Origin: Athripsodes cinereus
Taxonomy: Eukaryota > Arthropoda > Insecta > Trichoptera > Leptoceridae
DNA length: 64,000 bases
Reading direction: 5' to 3'
Assembly (NCBI GenBank): GCA_947579605.1
Contig: OX388319.1
Coordinates: 2,480,001 to 2,544,000, forward strand
In this document: in pieces, positions 2,231 to 61,375 of the stretch
Numbering within the stretch: position 1 is the first letter of the stretch
How the letters are laid out: each line of letters begins with the position of its first letter
Translations under genes and position numbers: made by a program
The notes under the pieces: generated by a model
Databases searched by the model: none
What the model was told of the DNA's origin: nothing
The model's input: only the letters and a program-made list of their open reading frames with translations

Positions 2231-3050
2231 TGATACTGTAATAAATGAATCTGTTATACTTCTAAATAATTTAGTTTCCTGAGATAAAATCGTATAAAAT
2301 TATAATAGATATTAATGTGCTTTCGCATAAACCTAAAAATATCAAATTGATACCTTAACATTATCACATGGTTTAAGGGAGCACCATGTTTGAAAATCGG
2401 TATCTTAGGGGTCAGGAAAAACTTATCTCAAAATTCACTGCATTCATACGAAGATTATAAAAACAAAATGCATGGATACTTAATTTATTCCTTTATTCCA
2501 AAAAAAGATATTCAAGGCGACGGACGAAGAATAAAACTGTCGTAACAATGCTCCACAACAGTTCACTGACTGTCCCCTTAGAATAATTGATAAGTACTAA
2601 TAATATAATAACAATTAACAATTATAATTGTTACACAATTTGACATTGTTACGAATAAAGTCGCTATTACGTTGAGTATTCGTGACGCTTTGAATCGTGT
2701 GTTAACGATAATAGAACTAACAATAATACCTTATAATAGTTAAGGAAAAACAATAGCAGGTTACTATAGAATAACTAATAACAGACTGACTATTATAGTA
2801 AACTATTACAATGGAATTCCCTGTTACAGTAACAATACCTTGTGGTTCAGATATACGTCGATCGACGTGTGAACTTTGCATAGAGCGGGGTCATTGGATC
2901 AAGAACTTATCTTGAGCAGGTGTATAAGTTACCATAACGAGGTTAAATGACCCAAAACTGCTAAAGTTATTAATTAAATTCTGTAGTTTTTTTTTTTATT
3001 TTCACAACTGGATTTTCTGTAACCCAGTCAAAACCTTTGTGAATTTCTTA
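2231..3050. other. No feature seen
   Basis: AT-rich, no ORF above background. The palindromic octamer CGATCGACG near 2857 is isolated. Nothing further could be supported. Confidence 0.4.
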
Positions 3051-3054
3051 ATGG

Positions 3055-3770
3055 GGTGTTCACATTTGGCGAATATCGCAAGGCGAATTTCGTTTGCATA
3101 AAAAAACAAAATTCGCCGGACGCCCATTGATCGTCACACCACCTGTTCACACGGTCCACCGATATAGATACGATCTGTCAGATGCGCTTTGATTTTGACG
3201 TTGTTTTCAAAATAGCGAACGTCGAGATGGAGATCGCGAAGTGTTTATTATTAAACATAGTTTTGAACAACTCCACATTAATCATTCCAATTGATCACAC
3301 TCATCCATAGTCAACCTATTTGAATAGGTATTAACTAGGTAGGTATGTTGTATATGATACACATACATATGTGAACTTCCTTAAGGAGTTCAGTTCCCGA
3401 CATCCAATTGTGTCAAAAAATTCATAACATAAATTGTTTATTATTAGTCGAAAATGTTATAGTAGAGGTTATAAGGCGCCTTTTAATTAAGGAAACAAAT
3501 GCCACAAACCAACAACAGAAATACCTAACAACTGTCACGAAGCGGGAAACATTATAAAATGTATAGGTTTTGCCGCCGTTTTGCACGGATGCCGCTCGTA
3601 TCTACATTCGCGCATCGTTCAACCAGCTTAAAAGTTGGAAGGTGGTCAACTTGAGAAGATATCGTTTCTACTGGTTTTTATCGTTTCAGATTAAATGTCA
3701 ATTTGTTCACACGGTTCAAATAGCTGACGATATTTTGGTGTCTTGGCGATATTCGCCAAATGAGAACACC
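3055..3770. mobile_element. TIR DNA transposon, non-autonomous (copy 1)
   Basis: The left end 3055-3079 and right end 3746-3770 are 25-bp inverted repeats with one mismatch, built around TTTGGCGAATATCGC. Subterminal parts also contain GTTCACACGG on both sides. The interior holds only an ORF of 69 codons (3570-3779) without a recognised domain, so the copy is not autonomous. A second, inverted and diverged copy lies at 20851-21350; the two align through both ends. I could not settle the target duplication. The end motif resembles Harbinger-type ends, but this is an inference. Confidence 0.7.
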
Positions 3771-5325: not shown

Positions 5326-5562
5326 TTTTAAATTTTAAATTTTTAACTAGTTTAAAAACACCCGAAAATGTAAGTTTATAAAACTATTGAAACTAAAGAA
5401 ATGTATTAAAGTTTTGTTAATTTGAACAATAAAATATAAGATAATAATATTTAATTTTGAAAAATGACACGTCAGAGGTTTCAGGCAGCTACTGTCAGCG
5501 CCATCCACCGACCGACACATTGATGTAATATGTTGAAATATCGACCCTCAGATTATCTAAGT

Positions 5563-5615
5563 GAACCCTGCTGGCTACCCTACTTATGAAGGATGTCGTG
5601 ATGATATAGTAGCAG
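5563..5615 (+). repeat. SINE family A, 3' end only
   Basis: Carries the family A terminus CTGCTGGCTACCCTACTTAT, then GTCGTGATGATATAGTAGCAG. This is a 5'-truncated copy of the element defined at 26340-26593. Confidence 0.7.
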
Positions 5616-5818
5616 TAGTTGTAGACTCTATTTACAAGTGTTTGAACTGTCTACTGAACGAAAGATAAATAATAATTATACGTGGAAGATGTGTTCTCCG
5701 AATACCGTTTACTAATCGCTGTACAAACAAATATACACATTATAGTATTATCTCAAGAATGTAAACAGAAAAGACATCGCGACTGAGTATTATTTACCTC
5801 GACGTGGTTGGTATAAGC

Positions 5819-6420
5819 CAGTGGTCGGCAAAATGCGGCTCTTTGGCCCCGTAAGTGTGGCTCTGAAGGGTGAGCCTAGAGTCAAATTCGTTAGAGATGA
5901 AAATAAGACAACGTGAAATAAGAAATTAAATTTAAAAAAAAATCGTTACAAATACGAAAACAATTTCAACACACAAAATTCGTGTCATTAATTACCAAAT
6001 TGCAGTGTTTGCACAAAATTCGAAAAACTGTCGATCGAAAACTATGTAATGTTTCAAACTTTTTATTATTAGGTAATTATTAAAATCTTTATTTATATAG
6101 TATGAAATCAAGTTTGACTCAGAGTAAGTACCCCTAATTTAGCTTAGGTCTAAAATGGTAATAAATGTTTAGAAAATTAATTAACAGATATGCCTCTCAA
6201 TTTTTTTTGATCGGTTTAATGTAATTTATGTCCACAATTGCCAGGGACCTGAAGGAGGCAGAGTTGCGCTCGGAGGATGCAGGGTACCGGAAAACTTGGA
6301 AGATAAGGACTAGGAGAGCCGACCCCAAGTTAATGAGATGAAGGCAAGGGCGAAGAAGAAGATCGGTGTAATATGTAGATACATATTTGGCTCTTTGGTG
6401 AATAAGTTTGCCGATCACTG
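5819..6420. mobile_element. hAT-like non-autonomous element
   Basis: Ends CAGTGGTCGGCAAA (5819 onwards) and TTTGCCGATCACTG (to 6420) are inverted with one mismatch. The flanks GTATAAGC (5811-5818) and GTGTAAGC (6421-6428) form an 8-bp duplication with one difference. CAGTG ends and 8-bp duplications are hallmarks of the hAT superfamily. The interior has no transposase and contains a later LINE fragment at 6221-6360. Confidence 0.8.
6221..6360 (+). mobile_element. LINE 3' end fragment nested in the hAT-like element
   Basis: Matches the C-terminal and 3' end of the LINE fragment at 60480-60600: a GACCTGAAGGAGGCAGAG-type start, ACTAGGAGAGCCGACCCCAA, then a GAAGAAGAAG tail. The flanking GATCGGTTTAAT (6209-6220) and GATCGGTGTAAT (6361-6372) look like a 12-bp target duplication with one change. 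5'-truncated and not functional. Confidence 0.75.
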
Positions 6421-36219: not shown

Positions 36220-36456
36220 GCAGTGTTAGGGTTATGTCCAAGTTCTGCCAGTATCACTCGCAAACGAATCACGAAACCCGGGTTCGATTCCCGGACAGGA
36301 TAAAATAAAGAATGATCTATTCAAAACTGTCCTGAATCTGGGTGTTACATGTATATGTGTTTAGTGCATTGTATTAATGTGTATCGTCCTGTTAGTACCC
36401 ATAATACAAGATTCATATTACATAATATGTAAACTAAGATATAATATTATTATATC
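36220..36456 (+). mobile_element. tRNA-derived SINE, family C, 5' portion (split by Harbinger)
   Basis: B box GGTTCGATTCC within GAAACCCGGGTTCGATTCCC, then GGTGTTACATGTATATGTGT and GTTAGTACCCATAATACAAG. Its continuation, GTTTGGGACTAAATCGATTT, is found only after the Harbinger element (39761 onwards). The intact copy is at 42771-43010. Confidence 0.85.
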
Positions 36457-36459
36457 TTA
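36457..36459. repeat. Harbinger target-site duplication, left
   Basis: TTA, repeated at 39758-39760. PIF/Harbinger elements duplicate TWA-type trinucleotides. Confidence 0.9.
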
Positions 36460-36478
36460 AGGCTAGCATACACGGCAG

Positions 36479-36570
36479 ATCGATCGTTGCGACCGATCTT
36501 TACGATAATCGTAACGATCGGTCGCACTAAAAATGCTACTCACACATGAACGATCGATCGTTACGATCTA
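36479..36570. promoter_or_regulatory. Left subterminal repeats of the Harbinger element
   Basis: Repeated ATCGATCGTT, CGATCGGTCG and TAACGATC words in both orientations, just upstream of the transposase start. Expected to be binding sites for the transposase or its MADF partner and to overlap the promoter; function inferred. Confidence 0.6.
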
Positions 36571-36631
36571 TCATTTACTTGTTCAAAAAGGAATGAATAA
36601 GTCGTGCTCAAATAATTTAACGTGTCTTATA

Positions 36632-38787
36632 ATGGAAAACGAATTGCTTTTACTTTCCTCTGCAGCGCTAACTTTGATTCGGCTACAGGAAAAAAGAAGA
36701 AAACCTAGAAAAGTCTGGGTTAAAGAATGGTTATTAAAGCGAAATCAGTATTCACATGTAAATATTTTAAATGAATTAAGATTCCATCCAAAAGATTGGC
36801 ACAACTATATGAGAATGACGGAACAGACGTATCTAAAATTATTGAAACTAGTATCGCCTAAAATACAAAAGTGCGATACGAATATGAGACAAGCTGTCAG
36901 CAATCACGAGCGCCTTAGTGCAACTTTGCGTTTTCTGGCAACTGGACGATCTTATGAAGACTTAAAGTTTTCAACGTTGATTTCACCACAGTTATTGGGA
37001 AGAATCATCCCAGAAACCTGCGTTGCCATTTACAAAGCATGTCAGGACTATTGTAAGGTAAGCACCTACTTCAATAAAAGACACATAATTCATAAAATAT
37101 AAACATTTATTTTTTTAGGGTTTAAAGTTTTACATTAGGGTTGAAAGTTTTCAAAAAAAGTCAATAGATTTTGTTCTTTTTCATTTGATTGTGCTTGGGG
37201 TTGTATCTTGTTTACAGGTATGCTTGGTAGTATAACTTTTGATGGTGTCTGTATATGTTGTTGATGAATGTGTTTATGTAAATGATCCTGTGAATATGTA
37301 GATGGTTGTGGTTGTGAGTATGGAGATGGCTGTAGTTGTGAGTTTGGAGATGTCAATGGTTGAGTGTAGAGAGATGTCTGTTGAGTGTAGGAAGATGTCT
37401 GTTGAATGTCGGGAGATGGCCGTGGTTCTGGATTTGGAGATGTCAGCGTTTGTGTATAGGGAGATGTCGGTCGAGTGTAGGGAGATGGCTGTTGAGTATA
37501 GGGAGATGTCGGTTGAGTGTAGGGAGATGGTTGTTGAGTATAGGGAGAAGGATGTTGAGTGTAGGGAGATGGCTGTTGAGAGTAGGGAGATGTCTGTTGA
37601 GAGTAAGGAGATTGATGTGGAGCAGCATTATTAAAAATATCGTTAATTTTTCTGACTGTGTGTCTATTTAAGTTTCCAAGTTCGGCCTCCAACAATGTTT
37701 CGTTAATTATTTTCTCTGCCCAGATTCGTTGCTCTTTTGACAGTTTTTGTAGTTTTGAAGCTACATTTCTACCAAAAATTTCAAAAGGGTTTTCCGGTTT
37801 TATTGCTGATATTTTTTGGTTTATATTTTCAAGGGTTACATCTATTACTGATTTTTCTTTTTTTCGCTTAAATTGATTTGGTGTTGGCGCAGGTGCCGGT
37901 TTTTCTACATTTTCATCTAGACTTGGACATTCGTTGTCATTTTCCTCTTGTTCCTCAAAAATACTCTGTAATAAAAGAAAATTGTTTTGTTTCAGTTACC
38001 TTTGAATGAAATTGAATGGAAAGCAATTGGAGCTGAATTTGAAAAACGATGGAATTTTCCCAATTGTCTTGGTGCTGTTGATGGCAAGCACATTAAAATC
38101 AAACCACCGCCTGAATCTGGTTCATATTTCTTTAATTATAAACACTTCCACAGTCAGGTTTTGATGGGAATTGCCAATGCTAATTATGAGCTGATTTATT
38201 TTCATTTTGGTACGAATGGTCGAGTGTCAGACGGTGGTGTAATAAAAAATACAGATTTTTATCAAAAACTTATTAACAATACATTGAAGTTGCCACAGCC
38301 AAGATCAGTGGATGGAATAACGCTTCCTTATGTGTTTGTTGGAGATGAAGCTTTTGCTCTAAGGAATGATTTTTTGAAACCATTTAATAAATCGCAGCTC
38401 AATGTAAATAGAAGAATTTTCAATTACCGTTTATCCCGAGCAAGACGAATAATTGAAAATGTGTTTGGAATTTTAGTTGCACATTTTAGAATACTGAAAA
38501 CAGAAATCAATTTGGACTTGAATAATATTGGTCCTGTAGTAATGGCTTGTTGTGCACTTCACAACTTTTTACGCCGAGAAAATCCAGACACCTACTCACC
38601 GCAAGATAGTTTTGACAGAGAAAACTATGAAGTTGGAGAGATTGAAGAAGGTCTACAAAGTAATTTGATTAGTCTCGAGAGAAAAAGAGGATCCGGTTTT
38701 CAGGCAGCAATAGAAAATAGAAACTTATTCGTAGACTATTTTAACGGAATCGGTGCAGTTCCATGGCAGAACAATTTTATATCCTAG
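36632..38787 (+). CDS. Harbinger transposase (HARBI1-like, DDE_Tnp_4), two exons
   Basis: Exon 1 is 36632-37057 (142 codons), the intron 37058-37995 (938 bp, GTAAGC...TTTCAG, phase 0) and exon 2 37996-38787 (263 codons), giving about 405 residues, a usual length for HARBI1-like proteins. Residues about 90-140 (HERLSATLRFLATGRSYEDL) form the predicted helix-turn-helix. The catalytic triad is visible: Asp about 171 in GAVDGKH, Asp about 259 in VFVGDEAF, Glu about 296 in RIIENVFG. It should cut and paste the element at TTA-like sites in the nucleus with the MADF partner. I chose ATG 36632 because upstream in-frame ATGs (36533, 36593) lie in or near the terminal repeats; 36593 remains possible. 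AATAAA is at 38817-38822. No stop or frameshift is seen. The intron carries exon 2 of the opposite-strand MADF gene. Confidence 0.9.
37106..37111 (-). terminator. Poly(A) signal of the MADF gene
   Basis: AATAAA on the minus strand, 24 nt after the MADF stop codon and still inside the transposase intron, so the mature 3' end should fall short of transposase exon 1 (ends 37057). Confidence 0.65.
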
Positions 38788-39504
38788 TACAGAAATATTT
38801 TTTAAGTTGAACTATTAATAAAAACTTGTACACAACTGAGAAACATATTTGTATTTTTTTTTATTAACATAACCATGTTACGGCACACAAATTTCCACGA
38901 TTGCGTATTTTTTAATTTAATTATATTTGCTTTAAATGATCGGGGTCGCTTTAAGGTGACCCCTTTAAAATTTAACATGTGCTCACCTAACAACCTAACC
39001 TATCCAATTTGGAAAAAAAACATAAAAGTTTTTCAGCAATTTCAATCCAGTATTCAAATAACTATGACAACATGGCGTCTTAAAAAATGGTCTCAATTTA
39101 ACAGTATGAGGTTTGACATTGTAATACCTAAACAAAAAAATACTCACCGAATTTGTAGAACTCATTCCCTTATACGGTATTTCCTGATCTTTTAAAAATA
39201 TCAAGTTATGGAAATAGCTCAGTTTTGGTGTATACATTTCGTCGGTCCCACTTCCAGACACCATAGAGTCGTTTTGTTTTTTCAACTCTTTCCGAAACAC
39301 TGTTCGTAAATTATTAATTTTTTTTTTAACTTTTTCAAGGTTCGCAGTGCTGTCTATTGTCAACATTTTGTCTAATAATATGCTATAGCATGCTGCTTTC
39401 TTTGTGTTATTGTGGTAACATTTGTGTTTAGTCTTCCACAACGGCTCCTGCTCTCTGAACAAATCAATAAATTCTATTAAAAAATCGTGGCTCCACGTAG
39501 CCAT
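37135..39504 (-). CDS. Harbinger accessory protein with MADF and BESS-like regions, two exons
   Basis: Exon 1 is 39504-39148 (119 codons), the intron 39147-37966 (1182 bp, GTGAGT...TTACAG, phase 0) and exon 2 37965-37135 (276 codons plus TAA), about 395 residues. Residues about 8-105 form a MADF domain: FLIEFIDLFREQEPLWKTKH near the start, VKKKINNLRTVFRKELKK in the middle, YFHNLIFLKDQE at the end. Near residues 170-210, NPFEIFGRNVASKLQKL and AEKIINETLLEAELG resemble the BESS-type interaction region of MADF-BESS proteins. The tail has about 15 SPYTQQP-like heptads. Known Harbinger systems need a second DNA-binding protein for nuclear import and end recognition; that role is inferred here. ATG 39504 begins MATWSHDF at the domain edge; the GTG at 39522 is not needed. 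The intron contains transposase exon 2. Confidence 0.87.
37288..37611 (-). repeat. 21-bp coding minisatellite (SPYTQQP heptads)
   Basis: Inside MADF exon 2. The translated unit is SPYTQQP with variants SPYSQQT, SPYTRPT, TSPNPEP and SLYTQPL. The 5' units are most regular and the 3' ones decay. On the plus strand the same repeat gives spurious ORFs (37302-37634, 37360-37671). The repeat keeps the frame; such tails are usually disordered. Confidence 0.9.
37966..37995. promoter_or_regulatory. Back-to-back splice acceptors on both strands
   Basis: In 30 bp lie the 3' splice site of the transposase intron (TTGTTTTGTTTCAG, plus, AG at 37994-37995) and that of the MADF intron (TTTCTTTTATTACAG, minus, AG at 37967-37966). 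The two pyrimidine tracts are on opposite strands, side by side. Each exon 2 starts immediately outside. Confidence 0.85.
38817..38822 (+). terminator. Poly(A) signal of the transposase gene
   Basis: AATAAA 29 nt after the stop codon, inside the MADF intron and over 300 bp from MADF exon 1. Confidence 0.65.
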
Positions 39505-39546
39505 TTTTTTCGCAGTAAGCACGTGCGGCGGCCAGCAACAGACTGA

Positions 39547-39737
39547 TCCAAATTGATCGAATCGTTAATCGCAAAGCACCACACACTGTCGATCGGTCGT
39601 AACGATATTAATGATTGCATGAGTTTTTGTTGCGATTTACGATATCGCAAACGATGAAGTAAATCGTTAACGATCTTGACATACACGTACGATTCGTCGT
39701 TACAAGCGGTCTGAAGCGACGGATCGTATCGATCGAT
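39547..39737. promoter_or_regulatory. Right subterminal repeats of the Harbinger element
   Basis: CGATCGGTCGTAACGATA, AAATCGTTAACGATC and related words in both orientations upstream of the MADF start. Matches the left side in composition and probable function. Confidence 0.6.
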
Positions 39738-39757
39738 TGTATCATATATGGGGCCCT

Positions 39758-39810
39758 TTAGTTTGGGACTAAATCGATTTGCGCGAAATGTGTATGCATG
39801 TTATGTTATA
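39758..39810 (+). mobile_element. SINE family C, 3' remainder after Harbinger
   Basis: TTA duplication at 39758-39760, then GTTTGGGACTAAATCGATTT, which continues the SINE interrupted at 36456. Confidence 0.8.
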
Positions 39811-42770: not shown

Positions 42771-43010
42771 GACCGGTGTGGCGCGGAGGTTAACGCAATT
42801 GCCTTTGAGTCACGAGGTCCTGGGTTCGATTCCCGGCCAGGGCAAAATGAAGAATGACCTTTTTCAGATTGTCTGGGTGTTACATGTATATGTGTTTAGT
42901 GCATTGTATATGTGTATCGCCGTGTTAGTACCCATAATACAAGATTCATATCTTAGTTTGGGACTAGCTCGATCTGTGTGAATTGTCTATACGTGTTAAT
43001 TAATTAATTA
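42771..43010 (+). mobile_element. tRNA-derived SINE, family C, intact copy (empty site for Harbinger)
   Basis: tRNA-like head at about 42774-42843: GGTGTGGCGCGGAGGTTAAC as A-box region and GGTTCGATTCC (42823-42833) as B box, closing in CCGGCCAGGGCA. The body includes GTGTTACATGTATATGTG, GTGTTAGTACCCATAATACA and then ATATCTTAGTTTGGGACTAG. The last string is continuous here and is the exact spot split by the Harbinger element at 36457-39760. Confidence 0.88.
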
Positions 43011-44129: not shown

Positions 44130-44290
44130 GGCTTGTTGGAAGACATCGCATTCTAGCGATAAACTCGCACTTTGTACATTTCACACGTATAGACAATTCA
44201 CACAGATCGAGCTAGTCCCAAACTCAAATATGAATCTTGTATTATGGTTACTAAAGCGACGACACACATAAATACAATGCACTTAACACA
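44130..44290. repeat. Family E scrap followed by inverted SINE C 3' part
   Basis: 44130-44180 has GGCTTGTTGGAAGACATCGC and GCGATAAACTCGCACTTTGT (family E, plus). 44185-44290 is SINE C on the minus strand: AGACAATTCACACAGATCGA, CTAGTCCCAAACTC, TGAATCTTGTATTATGG. This third SINE C copy also lacks any Harbinger insertion. Confidence 0.7.
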
Positions 44291-45599
44291 ATATATTCAT
44301 GTAACCTTAAATTGTATAACAGATATTTTTATTAATAAATCAAATGATATTTTTATGATACTTTGTATTGATTTGAAATATTGTTACCAATGTACGTACA
44401 GTGAAGAATAAATATAAAATACTAAAATAAATAAATAAATGTGTGTATGTTGCATTAGAATGTTCTTTTTAATCATTACATGAATTTTGAAGTGCCTTTT
44501 TGATAGGACGTCGTCTACTTTTTTCATTTCTTTAATGTGACTTTTTTTTATATTCATAAAGCTTGTTTATAGTCTGAATGTGTGTGTGTATGAATTTTCT
44601 TTTACTATTTCTGTTTAAATGTGTGCTTATTCTTAATTTTTATAACCAGGTTAGTTGGAAGACACATACTTTTTTCAGTCTGAGCTACTGACGTCTTTTT
44701 CAATATTCAAAATTAGCATTGGCAGCACATTGACTACTGCTAATACCAAATGTGGGGTATTAACTGCATTTAATAAATTTGCAGATTGTCCTCACCGAGC
44801 CTTTAAAAATCATCCAAAACGGGTATTATGCCTCATCGCTGAATCGTAGATGTCCTATGTAAGCTTTTCAATCAGCTGCTTTTTACAAGACTCCCCTAGA
44901 AAGCTTACAGAAATTAGTAATTAGTGGCATACCTACCCATTCTTTGCCAAGCCTTCACGAGGTAAGTTTTTTATCTAAATAAAAATGTATATGTATAAAA
45001 TCATGATAAGTACCTTTTTATTTTGAAAAATCCAAAAATTCAAACTGTGGAAGGTTGTTCCAAAATGCACTGACACTTCACTACATAAAATATTATAAGT
45101 GTTTGAATCATAAAACACTCGCTAAAGTTCATAAAGAGAAATAATTATGAAACATTAATTTTGGACTAATGCAACACTGGCAAGCACAAAACAAACAATA
45201 TCGTATAAAAGTAAAATAAGCAAATATGTTTCCTTTATTCAAGATAAAAATATTTTATTTTACTTATTTATTTATTTCACGAAGATCAATGCACCACAAG
45301 AGTGAACTGAGAGGTTAGTACACTTTGCAAAAAAAAAAAAATAATCAATAAACACTTTGGTAATAATGAACAACAAAAAAAACGAATAAAAATAAAACAA
45401 ACACTCCAGAAATTATTCTCAAAAAAAAAAAACAATTAAAAAATATTGCACAATAATATATTATTCTGTTGGGAACTTTGGAAGAACTTTTGCAAATTGT
45501 CGAATTTATATTCGTCGTAAAAAAACACTCGATTATATTTTTGAACGCAATTTAGTGATACAGTTATCAAATTATTTCAACAAAAAGGATTTGCAATAT

Positions 45600-58975: not shown

Positions 58976-59000
58976 ACACTACTAAGTAGTAGTAGTAGAA

Positions 59001-59690
59001 TCTTATATTAATATCCGATTTTCAATAGAGAAATCTCGGCTGGGGCATTTCATTTCAAATCACCAAGAAAAAATGCAAAAAGTAACCCATCACTTCCGAT
59101 TTTTATTTACAAGTTGCTATGACCAAGTTATGAAACCATGCCAAATTTTTTTGGTCTAGGTCAAATACTTTCCAAGTTATCGGGGTTCAAAGTTTACCGG
59201 CGAGGTCCGATTTTGTCAACATCGACGTTGTGCCGCTGAAGAGAAAAAAAATCATAGCTCAGTTAATCCTTAATATTTTCGTGTGATATTTTTACCATTT
59301 ATTCTGTGATATGTACTGATGATATAAAAAAATATTTTGATGTGATATGTTGTTTTGAAAAAATTTAAATAAATATTATTCGCAAATTTTGAGGTTAGAA
59401 AACATGACTTTTTCAAAGTTAAATATGAAGAAGAGGCAGTATGGTTACCAAATTGTTTTTTCTTTATAAGTGTACCATAAAGATCAATCTAATAGGTTAT
59501 GAAAGAAAATTTGTGGTTTTTTGCTTGCCTGAGCCGCAGTTCGCCTGTTTTACACCCTCACTTTTCAGTACAATACACATCATCGGAGATAGTGTAATTG
59601 GAGTCGTAAATCTATTTATGTCTACATAAAAAGCTACACTCGTTACATTTATTGGATATACACCATAACATAACTTTTTACAAATGATAA
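59001..59690. other. No confident feature
   Basis: No repeat pairing. An open minus frame extends from the possible exon at 59698-59814 to about 59497, but it reads past a good GTAAGT donor, so the extension is doubtful. Confidence 0.35.
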
Positions 59691-59697
59691 AACTTAC

Positions 59698-59814
59698 AGA
59701 TGTCCTCTCTGCGCCAATTATTGAGATATTTTCAGACATTTCAGATTCAAAACACGAAGCTTGATTTACAATCAACAGAAACCCAAATTCTTGTTTTGAC
59801 ACACTGCCTGATAC
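59698..59814 (-). CDS. Possible internal exon (39 codons)
   Basis: On the minus strand, AATATACAG precedes 59814 and a consensus donor ATCT|GTAAGTTTT follows 59698; the segment between is open and phase 0 at both ends. It reads KQEFGFLLIVNQASCFESEM then SENISIIGAERTS. Codon use is balanced compared with the surroundings. No family recognised. The acceptor lacks a strong pyrimidine tract, so chance remains plausible. Confidence 0.3.
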
Positions 59815-59878
59815 CTGTATATTAAATAATTACTTATGTTGTGAAGATAGAGTAGCTTGGCAGCCATATTTGAACCAT

Positions 59879-60190
59879 GGACTTTTCACTCGAAGACCGA
59901 AATCTTTCCATCACGGAATCANNNNNNNNNNNNNNNNNNNNNNNNNNNNNNNNNNNNNNNNNNNNNNNNNNNNNNNNNNNNNNNNNNNNNNNNNNNNNNN
60001 NNNNNNNNNNNNNNNNNNNNNNNNNNNNNNNNNNNNNNNNNNNNNNNNNNNNNNNNNNNNNNNNNNNNNNNNNNNNNNNNNNNNNNNNNNNNNNNNNNNN
60101 NNNNNNNNNNNNNNNNNNNNNTCGGTTTCCAGTTCTCTCATTTCGGAGTCTCTTCGTCTTCGCGGCACAAGCATAATATTGCTTGCTGTA
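59879..60190. CDS. Coding-like sequence on both sides of the assembly gap
   Basis: Left of the gap, plus strand, ACCATGGAC gives MDFSLEDRNLSITES in a good start context. Right of it, one plus frame reads SSSLISESLRLRGTSIILLA just before a GTAAGA donor at about 60188. On the minus strand the same DNA reads MLVPRRRRDSEMRELETE before the gap and DSVMERFRSSSEKSMVQIWL after it. The gap length is not reliable, so frames cannot be joined and I cannot choose a strand. GC content is above the local mean. A short exon is possible; function unknown. Confidence 0.3.
59922..60121. other. Assembly gap (200 N)
   Basis: Exactly 200 N, a round placeholder size. ORFs drawn through it are not evidence of coding. 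Confidence 1.
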
Positions 60191-60319
60191 AGAGTACTTG
60201 GAGTGTTTCTAGGCTACAAATCTTTACGATTGCCCAAAATGAAAATATCTCAATACATTTCACAAAAGATTAATTTAAATCTATTATGTTGTTATGATTG
60301 TCCATATCCGTGGTAGTTT

Positions 60320-60602
60320 CAAAGTCACTCCCATCGGTGAAAAAATAACCGAAAACCGATTAAGATGATACGGGCACATCTTGAGACAACCACAAGATAA
60401 CATGATCAAAAAAACAATGGACATAGAAGTAGGACCCAGAAGACCAGGCAGACCAGTGACCACCTGGATGTCCACAATTCCAGGGACATGAAGGAGGCAA
60501 AGTTGCGCTCGGAGGATGCAGGGGACCGGAAAACTTGGAAGATGAGGACTAGGAGAGCCGACTCCAAGTAAATGGGATAAAGGCGAGGGCGAAGAAGAAG
60601 AT
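60320..60602 (+). pseudogene. LINE ORF2 C-terminus and (GAA)n 3' end
   Basis: One frame reads KITENRLR, a stop where Trp is expected, YGHILRQPQDNMIKKTMDIE and GPRRPGRPVTTWMSTI; a shifted frame continues RDMKEAKLRSEDAGDRKTW to MRTRRADSK and a stop. Tail GATAAAGGCGAGGGCGAAGA with AAGAAG. Same family as 6221-6360 and 41114-41245. Confidence 0.8.
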
Positions 60603-60832
60603 GTTGTTAAGATTGAAAAAGGAAAACAACTATAGCTTTTGGGGTAAAAGTATCAGAACGTGATCCCATGCTATGAAATTTGTTACAAAAAAAAAAAAAG
60701 GAAAAATTAACTCGGCGTTGTCAGCTTAGTAATAGCACAATCACAGTTGTTTTGATTAATAATAGCCACTGTATATTTTATTGCTAACGTTTTTGTTCCT
60801 TAAATATATCTCTTTATTATTGTTTAGAACAA

Positions 60833-60853
60833 GGGAGGGAGGGGGACGGGGGG
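60833..60853 (+). other. G-quadruplex-type motif
   Basis: GGG A GGG A GGGGG AC GGGGGG, four G runs with loops of 1-2 nt. It satisfies the usual G3+N1-7 rule and is surprising in DNA this AT-rich. The next 250 bp (CGAGAGAATGGGGAAG, AACCCCGCCTTCTCGAGACG) are also GC-richer and repeat-free. Confidence 0.85.
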
Positions 60854-61375
60854 TGGCGAGAGAATGGGGAAGATAAACGGATTAAAGCGGAAGTCATTTA
60901 TCGCGGTTTAGGAAACAAAAACAAAGATTAACCCCGCCTTCTCGAGACGCAGAAAGAAAAACAATAAAAAGGGTTGAGAATTTTTCCGATAATTAGGAAG
61001 GTATAAACAGTACTAGATGTAAATATTCGCGTCAAGATAAAAAAGAATGTTGAAAAAACACAAATGAACGTAGAAAAAAAAACAAAAGAGGCTCGCGCCA
61101 GACCGGAGTAAGAATAATATTAAATTTACAAGTGAAATAATAAATCTTGTTTACGCAAACAAACGACTATTTTTTGGTCGACGTAAATCATAAATTGCGC
61201 TACGGTAGTAAGGGGGGCAGTAGTAGTCTGGGGCAAATGTGGCTTAGGAGGGCAAAGGGTGTTCGGTACTATTAGTATTATTATTTGAGAAAGGCGAGAA
61301 TTTAAGAAAGCGTTTTGTAGATGGTGTATCGTTATTATTTTAGGAATAGTATAATATGGGTACCTACGTACATGT

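Follow-up and report, generated by a model that had tools for sequence, protein, structure and literature searches.

The window, a 64,000-nucleotide stretch of the genome of Athripsodes cinereus (Trichoptera), carries a PIF/Harbinger transposon in which a transposase gene and a MADF gene face each other and are predicted to interlock, each holding an exon of its partner within its intron. This layout is likely to act as a lock that keeps both genes together. The same exon order is found in other, divergent transposon families of this genome.

Gene Structure of the Window Element

Along the DNA the exons follow the order +, −, +, −, and the last exon of each gene is located inside the predicted intron of the other. 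The transposase gene (plus strand) consists of exon 1 (36632..37057, residues 1–142), a predicted intron (37058..37995), which contains the MADF 3′ exon on the opposite strand, and exon 2 (37996..38787, residues 143–405), which encodes the DDE domain with D171, D259 and E296. Its predicted poly(A) signal, AATAAA, is found at 38817..38822. The MADF gene (minus strand) starts with exon 1 (39148..39504), encoding the MADF DNA-binding domain, followed by a predicted intron (37966..39147), which contains transposase exon 2 on the opposite strand. Exon 2 of this gene (37135..37965) encodes a conserved C-terminal block and a SPYTQ-type repeat tail, the latter specified by a 21-bp tandem repeat (37359..37612, minus strand); the predicted poly(A) signal (TTTATT, i.e., AATAAA on the minus strand) is located at 37106..37111. 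Both opposing splice acceptors stand back to back in a 30-bp spacer (37966..37995, CTGTAATAAAAGAAAATTGTTTTGTTTCAG).

An earlier sequence-only reading had proposed these four exons, and its coordinates proved identical when re-derived, as did the GT-AG ends of all splice sites, the phase 0 joins and the open frames. The transposase (405 aa) has an open frame and an intron with the ends GTAAGC...TTTCAG (phase 0); the MADF protein (395 aa) likewise has an open frame, its intron having the ends GTGAGT...TTACAG (phase 0). Without splicing, the frames run into stops after 156 and 169 aa. Both poly(A) signals (38817 on the plus strand, 37106 on the minus strand) precede the nearest exon of the opposite gene, as had been claimed, and the mature mRNAs are therefore predicted to lack mutual complementarity. 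From one poly(A) signal to the other, a stretch of about 1.7 kb, the pre-mRNAs are predicted to be antisense to each other; the earlier reading gave about 1.65 kb.

The DDE_Tnp_4 domain (PF13359) is recognized by Pfam in transposase exon 2 (E 1.3e-27). Many named top homologues, among the matches listed, are annotated as putative nuclease HARBI1, which places the protein in the HARBI1 family; the protein P0139 of Arctia plantaginis, also among the matches listed, covers 59% of the transposase at 83% identity. In the homologue alignment D171 and E296 occupy invariant columns and D259 a nearly invariant one; we take these residues to be the catalytic D, D, E triad. The predicted transposase join was compared in 229 homologues, drawn from the best 120 listed in each of two protein searches (239 proteins minus ten MADF proteins). 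It is spanned by 117 of them, 112 of which are gapless across 20 residues. Among the 112 homologues not spanning the join, 86 begin at aligned positions 139–143 (0-based), where open reading frames starting at the end of the transposase intron would be expected to begin. The transposase profile had no match among PDB chains at E 0.01, and a search for relatives in phages and viral contigs returned none. A search of genome contigs revealed a single distant relative, L001, whose transposase gene has no intron. Its Harbinger-like protein is encoded by one ORF of 465 aa; the contig is assigned to a bacterial MAG (Arenicella) and is probably eukaryotic contamination.

The second gene encodes a protein of the Myb/SANT/MADF kind, with a MADF domain (PF10545, E 1.5e-16, Pfam) in exon 1. 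The MADF domain and the C-terminal block of exon 2 occur together in seven of the ten protein hits (P0121–P0127); P0128 combines the domain with a weaker tail, P0129 matches the repeat only, and P0130 matches the C-terminal block only. The mutual intron nesting put forward by the sequence-only reading is borne out by homologous proteins which run over both joins and by the recurrence of the exon order in relatives. We infer from the sequence that both introns are spliced as modelled.

Ends, Insertion Site and Derivatives

The whole transposon measures 3,298 bp (36460..39757) and is flanked by the trinucleotide TTA on the left (36457..36459) and on the right (39758..39760). PIF/Harbinger elements produce a 3-bp target-site duplication TWA, and the TTA/TTA of the window element is of this type. 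Judged from its sequence, the stretch 36460–39757 is a PIF/Harbinger element, since a transposase, a MADF partner and a target-site duplication are present together; the earlier assignment to Harbinger is thus upheld by DDE_Tnp_4, MADF and TTA/TTA. The left end (36460..36500, plus strand, AGGCTAGCATACACGGCAGATCGATCG...) and the right end (39717..39757, AGGGCCCCATATATGATACAATCGATCG... in minus-strand letters) match each other imperfectly in inverted orientation, as judged by eye; subterminal similarity also appears when the window is compared with itself by BLAST. In the same comparison the flanks of the element are found side by side at 42844–42998 and 44305–44183. These are two empty sites, i.e., paralogous copies of the repeat holding the insertion (42844..42998, plus strand, and 44183..44305, minus strand).

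A DNA search listed seven derivatives of the window element elsewhere in the genome, in which bases 1–448 (13–448 in one) are joined to bases 3089–3298 (3089–3271 in one) with 92–99% identity per piece. None of the seven retains any MADF coding sequence, and the greater part of the transposase is missing from each. The four derivatives that were read (L062–L065) are 657 bp long each and have the ends of the window element, flanked by TTA/TTA in three cases and by TAA/TTA in one. These shared ends fix the element boundaries at 36460–39757. A start at 36421, which the flank comparison allowed, was dropped because the derivatives share the end at 36460. Among the matches listed, the window element has one full copy in its own genome. 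Three fragments are also listed: the C53 fragment (bases 1–443 and 2899–3298) is a deleted copy which keeps the MADF start, the C17 right-end fragment (bases 2774–3298) contains MADF exon 1 with stops and has no transposase match, and the C19 fragment comprises bases 3068–3298. A domesticated PIF gene pair of the LPLG2/LPM2 type was rejected as an interpretation, the ends, the target-site duplication and mobile derivatives all being present.

Several other features of the sequence were noted. The 39 bp between the repeat flank and the element (36421–36459) contain a palindrome, AAGATATAATATTATTATATCTT, and resemble a small, inverted second copy of the target site. Near the left end (36488–36526) there is a near-perfect (95%) 19-bp inverted repeat with its arms 1 nt apart. 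Motifs resembling GATCGATCGTTACGATC recur in both subterminal regions and could be putative binding sites of the MADF protein. Farther along the window, the interval 59000–61000 contains 200 N bases (79 and 121 in its two kilobases), which represent an assembly gap or a masked stretch.

Recurrence in Divergent Families

Families were collected from transposase matches in the organism's own genome (G000, 716 Mb; the window lies on contig C15), at roughly 35–45% identity, and the exon order was read by HMM scans of six-frame ORFs. The resulting tally of 12 families leaves aside the distant loci L042–L046 and short or weaker transposase matches. In nine of the 12 families, the window included, the transposase 5′ exon is followed by the MADF 3′ exon on the opposite strand, then by the transposase 3′ exon and finally, again on the opposite strand, by the MADF 5′ exon: A (window), B (L032), C (L036), D (L038), E (L033), F (L037), G (L039), H (L041) and M (L061). 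All four exons are seen in seven of these nine (A, B, C, D, E, H and M), with a weak MADF 3′ exon match in family M (E 0.78). Families F and G show three exons in order; the MADF 5′ exon was not found in F, nor the transposase 5′ exon in G.

Transposase joins are in frame with GT-AG ends in all five other families modelled (B, C, D, E and F). Family E is the sole one, besides the window, for which the MADF join was spelled out: its joined exons give one full-length Pfam MADF match of 56.6 bits, compared with 32.9 and 21.9 bits for the parts. Locus L037 has neighbours of another kind; the intervals 5377–6348 and 764–2497, adjoining the Harbinger copy, presumably hold, to judge by sequence resemblance, an ORF for a mariner-like transposase and one resembling a reverse transcriptase.

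Locus L034 has a long transposase intron, but a MADF exon is not recognisable there. In L040 just 98 bp separate two transposase matches at the same position, and MADF was not found; this locus has GAIGG where others have GAIDG or similar and is probably inactive. L060 is decayed, and the interlock could not be placed in it. No side-by-side gene pair is shown among the 12 families. The sequence-only reading had named side-by-side relatives as the outcome that would mark the window copy as rearranged; the opposite was found, with eight other families interlocked.

The interlocked layout is not universal, because L042–L045 have single-ORF transposases (two of the four near-identical) and no recognised MADF gene in the 6 kb read, and the transposase of L001 is intronless. 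A MADF gene was not recognised at L046 either.

Copies and Recent Transposition

Families C, E and D are represented by 4, 5 and 26 copies, respectively. Sixteen fetched loci of family D are 99.8–100% identical to the reference over the stretch compared, three copies of family C are 100% identical to theirs, and four copies of family E are 99.8–100% identical. Such identity indicates that interlocked elements of these three families transposed recently. The terminal inverted repeats of family E are identical across the 45 bp compared. Target-site duplications at both ends, read by eye from the flanks, are TTA/TTA, TTA/TTA and TAA/TAA in family E, and TTA/TTA and ATA/ATA in family D. At the right ends of family D, TTA or TAA comes next in 12 of 16 readable cases and ATA, ACA or CTA in four.

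MADF exon 1 is present on the opposite strand beside every one of the 26 long transposase exon-2 matches of family D, at a distance of 314 bp in 25 cases and 853 bp in one. These 26 do not include two partial copies, L066 and L067. The former is 100% identical over 2,706 bp, breaks off within transposase exon 2 and has no MADF exon 1. The latter is 100% identical where it matches but has lost its middle; the deletion begins within the first transposase exon, takes in the MADF 3′ exon and ends within the second transposase exon. Damage to both genes in each of these copies agrees with a lock, though there are only two of them. MADF matches in the genome number 52 among those listed, including ones away from any transposase, and host MADF genes are likely among them.

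Two Intron Layouts

The interlocked families fall into two types. In type I (window, L032, L036, L038 and L061) the intron of the transposase gene comes after residue 142 or lies nearby, with phase 0 in the four families modelled (window, L032, L036 and L038). In three of these (window, L036 and L038) the MADF intron beside the spacer is situated behind the domain; the MADF gene of L032 has an additional split near the end of the domain. In type II (L033, L037, L039 and L041) the transposase intron is at residue 100, with phase 2 in L033 and L037, the two families modelled. Here the MADF domain itself is split, both halves being found in L033, L039 and L041 and the second half alone in L037. 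Both types are interlocked.

The gap between the opposing exons measures 24 bp in family E, 30 in the window, 40 in C, 48 in D, 148 in G, 152 in F and 409 in B, so that a short acceptor spacer of 24–48 bp is common to four families (E, window, C and D). In family D, as judged by eye, the MADF gene has a small additional exon, which adjoins the spacer.

Simple intron loss could not convert type I into type II, because it would delete an exon of the partner gene; either interlocking has two origins or there was some unknown intermediate. The transposase tree, which excludes L061, L060 and L046 and places H and L040 on long branches, has unsupported deep forks. Type II as one clade is not rejected (p-AU 0.295), and type I does not form one clade.

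Since types I and II differ in the intron positions of both genes and both interlock, interlocking could be a recurrent architecture of animal PIF/Harbinger transposons, arisen at least twice around a two-way splice-acceptor module down to 24 bp. This proposal is tentative. It would place the branch point of each strand in or next to a coding exon of the partner.

Proposed Mechanism and Alternative Explanations

In the mechanism proposed for the lock, transcription would start near both ends of the element and run inward. Each primary transcript would carry the last exon of the partner in antisense and remove it by splicing. Splicing to the two opposing acceptors of the central spacer would yield two mRNAs free of complementarity, and both proteins could then cooperate in transposition, as reported for zebrafish Harbinger3_DR (PMC9710019). 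If one gene lost its intron, an exon of its partner would go with it, and internal deletions would mostly strike both genes. Once formed, the interlock would be hard to undo stepwise and so would be passed to descendant families. Balanced expression, control by antisense RNA and constraint against losing one gene without the other had all been suggested as effects of the layout in the sequence-only reading. Constraint has the most support among them, because the two genes are paired in 26 of 26 family-D cases and both deleted D copies are hit in both genes. Two deleted copies of the window's own family tell against it: C17, which has MADF exon 1 but no transposase match, and C53, in which the MADF start is retained.

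The arrangement could instead have been inherited by all families from one ancestor which became interlocked by chance, with neither lock nor function. Present data fit such common descent and a lock alike. A transposase intron near residue 142, common to five of the nine interlocked families (type I), and a short AT-rich spacer between the opposing acceptors in both types are in line with a single chance origin; type II, however, differs in the intron position of both genes and is still interlocked, and the tree does not settle on one origin. Plain descent is considered unlikely. Somewhat less probable still is selection for regulation, whereby the two proteins would be balanced or limited by antisense pre-mRNAs, by convergent polymerases colliding or by the need for splicing, and unspliced RNA could give DNA-binding-type fragments (156 and 169 aa) possibly repressing transposition. 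The predicted pre-mRNA overlap of about 1.7 kb, the stops in the unspliced frames and the interlocking of both intron layouts are consistent with regulation, but the MADF domain of type II is split, so that an unspliced product would not contain the complete domain.

Rearrangement of one copy, or a wrong gene model, is very improbable. It would accord with the single full-length copy of the window element among the matches listed, but the order is the same in eight other families, homologues cross both joins, and the element has precise ends and a target-site duplication. A one-copy rearrangement was rejected on the ground that other families share the exon order. Compaction was also rejected as the reason for the layout, since intronless genes placed side by side would presumably be no longer. 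The lock remains the preferred explanation and is regarded as likely.

Relation to Known Systems

Descriptions exist of Harbinger elements with two genes, of domesticated gene pairs lying next to each other and of host genes that overlap (PMC9710019, PMC9179366, PMC11893794, PMC2330155); mutual nesting in a transposon does not appear in the accessible portions of these four sources. For the rice and zebrafish elements both proteins are reported to be needed for transposition, according to the available part of PMC9710019. Insect PIF/Harbinger elements with a MADF gene resemble the window element in combining a DDE transposase of about 400 aa with a MADF/Myb-like partner of 300–400 aa (PMC9710019, in part). 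The domesticated pairs treated in the same portion of that work are adjacent, with 97 and 179 bp between the genes in Anopheles gambiae and larger distances in some lineages, whereas the window pair is interlocked. Their direction varies, one pair is annotated as a single transcript, and mutual intron nesting is not mentioned in that portion. The cockroach domesticated transposases BPLG1/BPLG2 have two exons, like the window transposase, and represent the transposase only; the BPLG2 intron is about 900–1500 bp in all but one species (PMC9710019, in part).

Teleost Harbinger elements likewise have two ORFs, for a transposase and a Myb-like protein, and the accessible text of PMC9179366 does not mention interlocking. 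Overlapping host gene pairs (PMC2330155, in part) can lie on opposite strands with coding sequence in an intron of the partner, as here, and the window pair fits the partial convergent class. In the nested and embedded classes one gene is wholly contained in the other, whereas each gene of the window holds one exon of its partner, and does so in a mobile element; mutual exon nesting is not singled out in the accessible part of that source. The sequence-only reading knew of no described case, and a search for interlocked or interleaved Harbinger or host genes, drawing on partial texts and with Repbase and most subscription papers outside its scope, likewise found no description.

Significance

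It is an open question why transposons with two genes retain both of them, and an interlock that is conserved would answer it in simple physical terms. The interlock is visible in DNA and can be tested in many genomes. Annotation pipelines may call interlocked second exons separately or miss them. The spacer offers a natural setting in which to study how the two strands of a single short stretch are both used for splicing. If interlocking is indeed a recurrent architecture, these elements would be the first transposon group with two genes held together by mutually nested exons.
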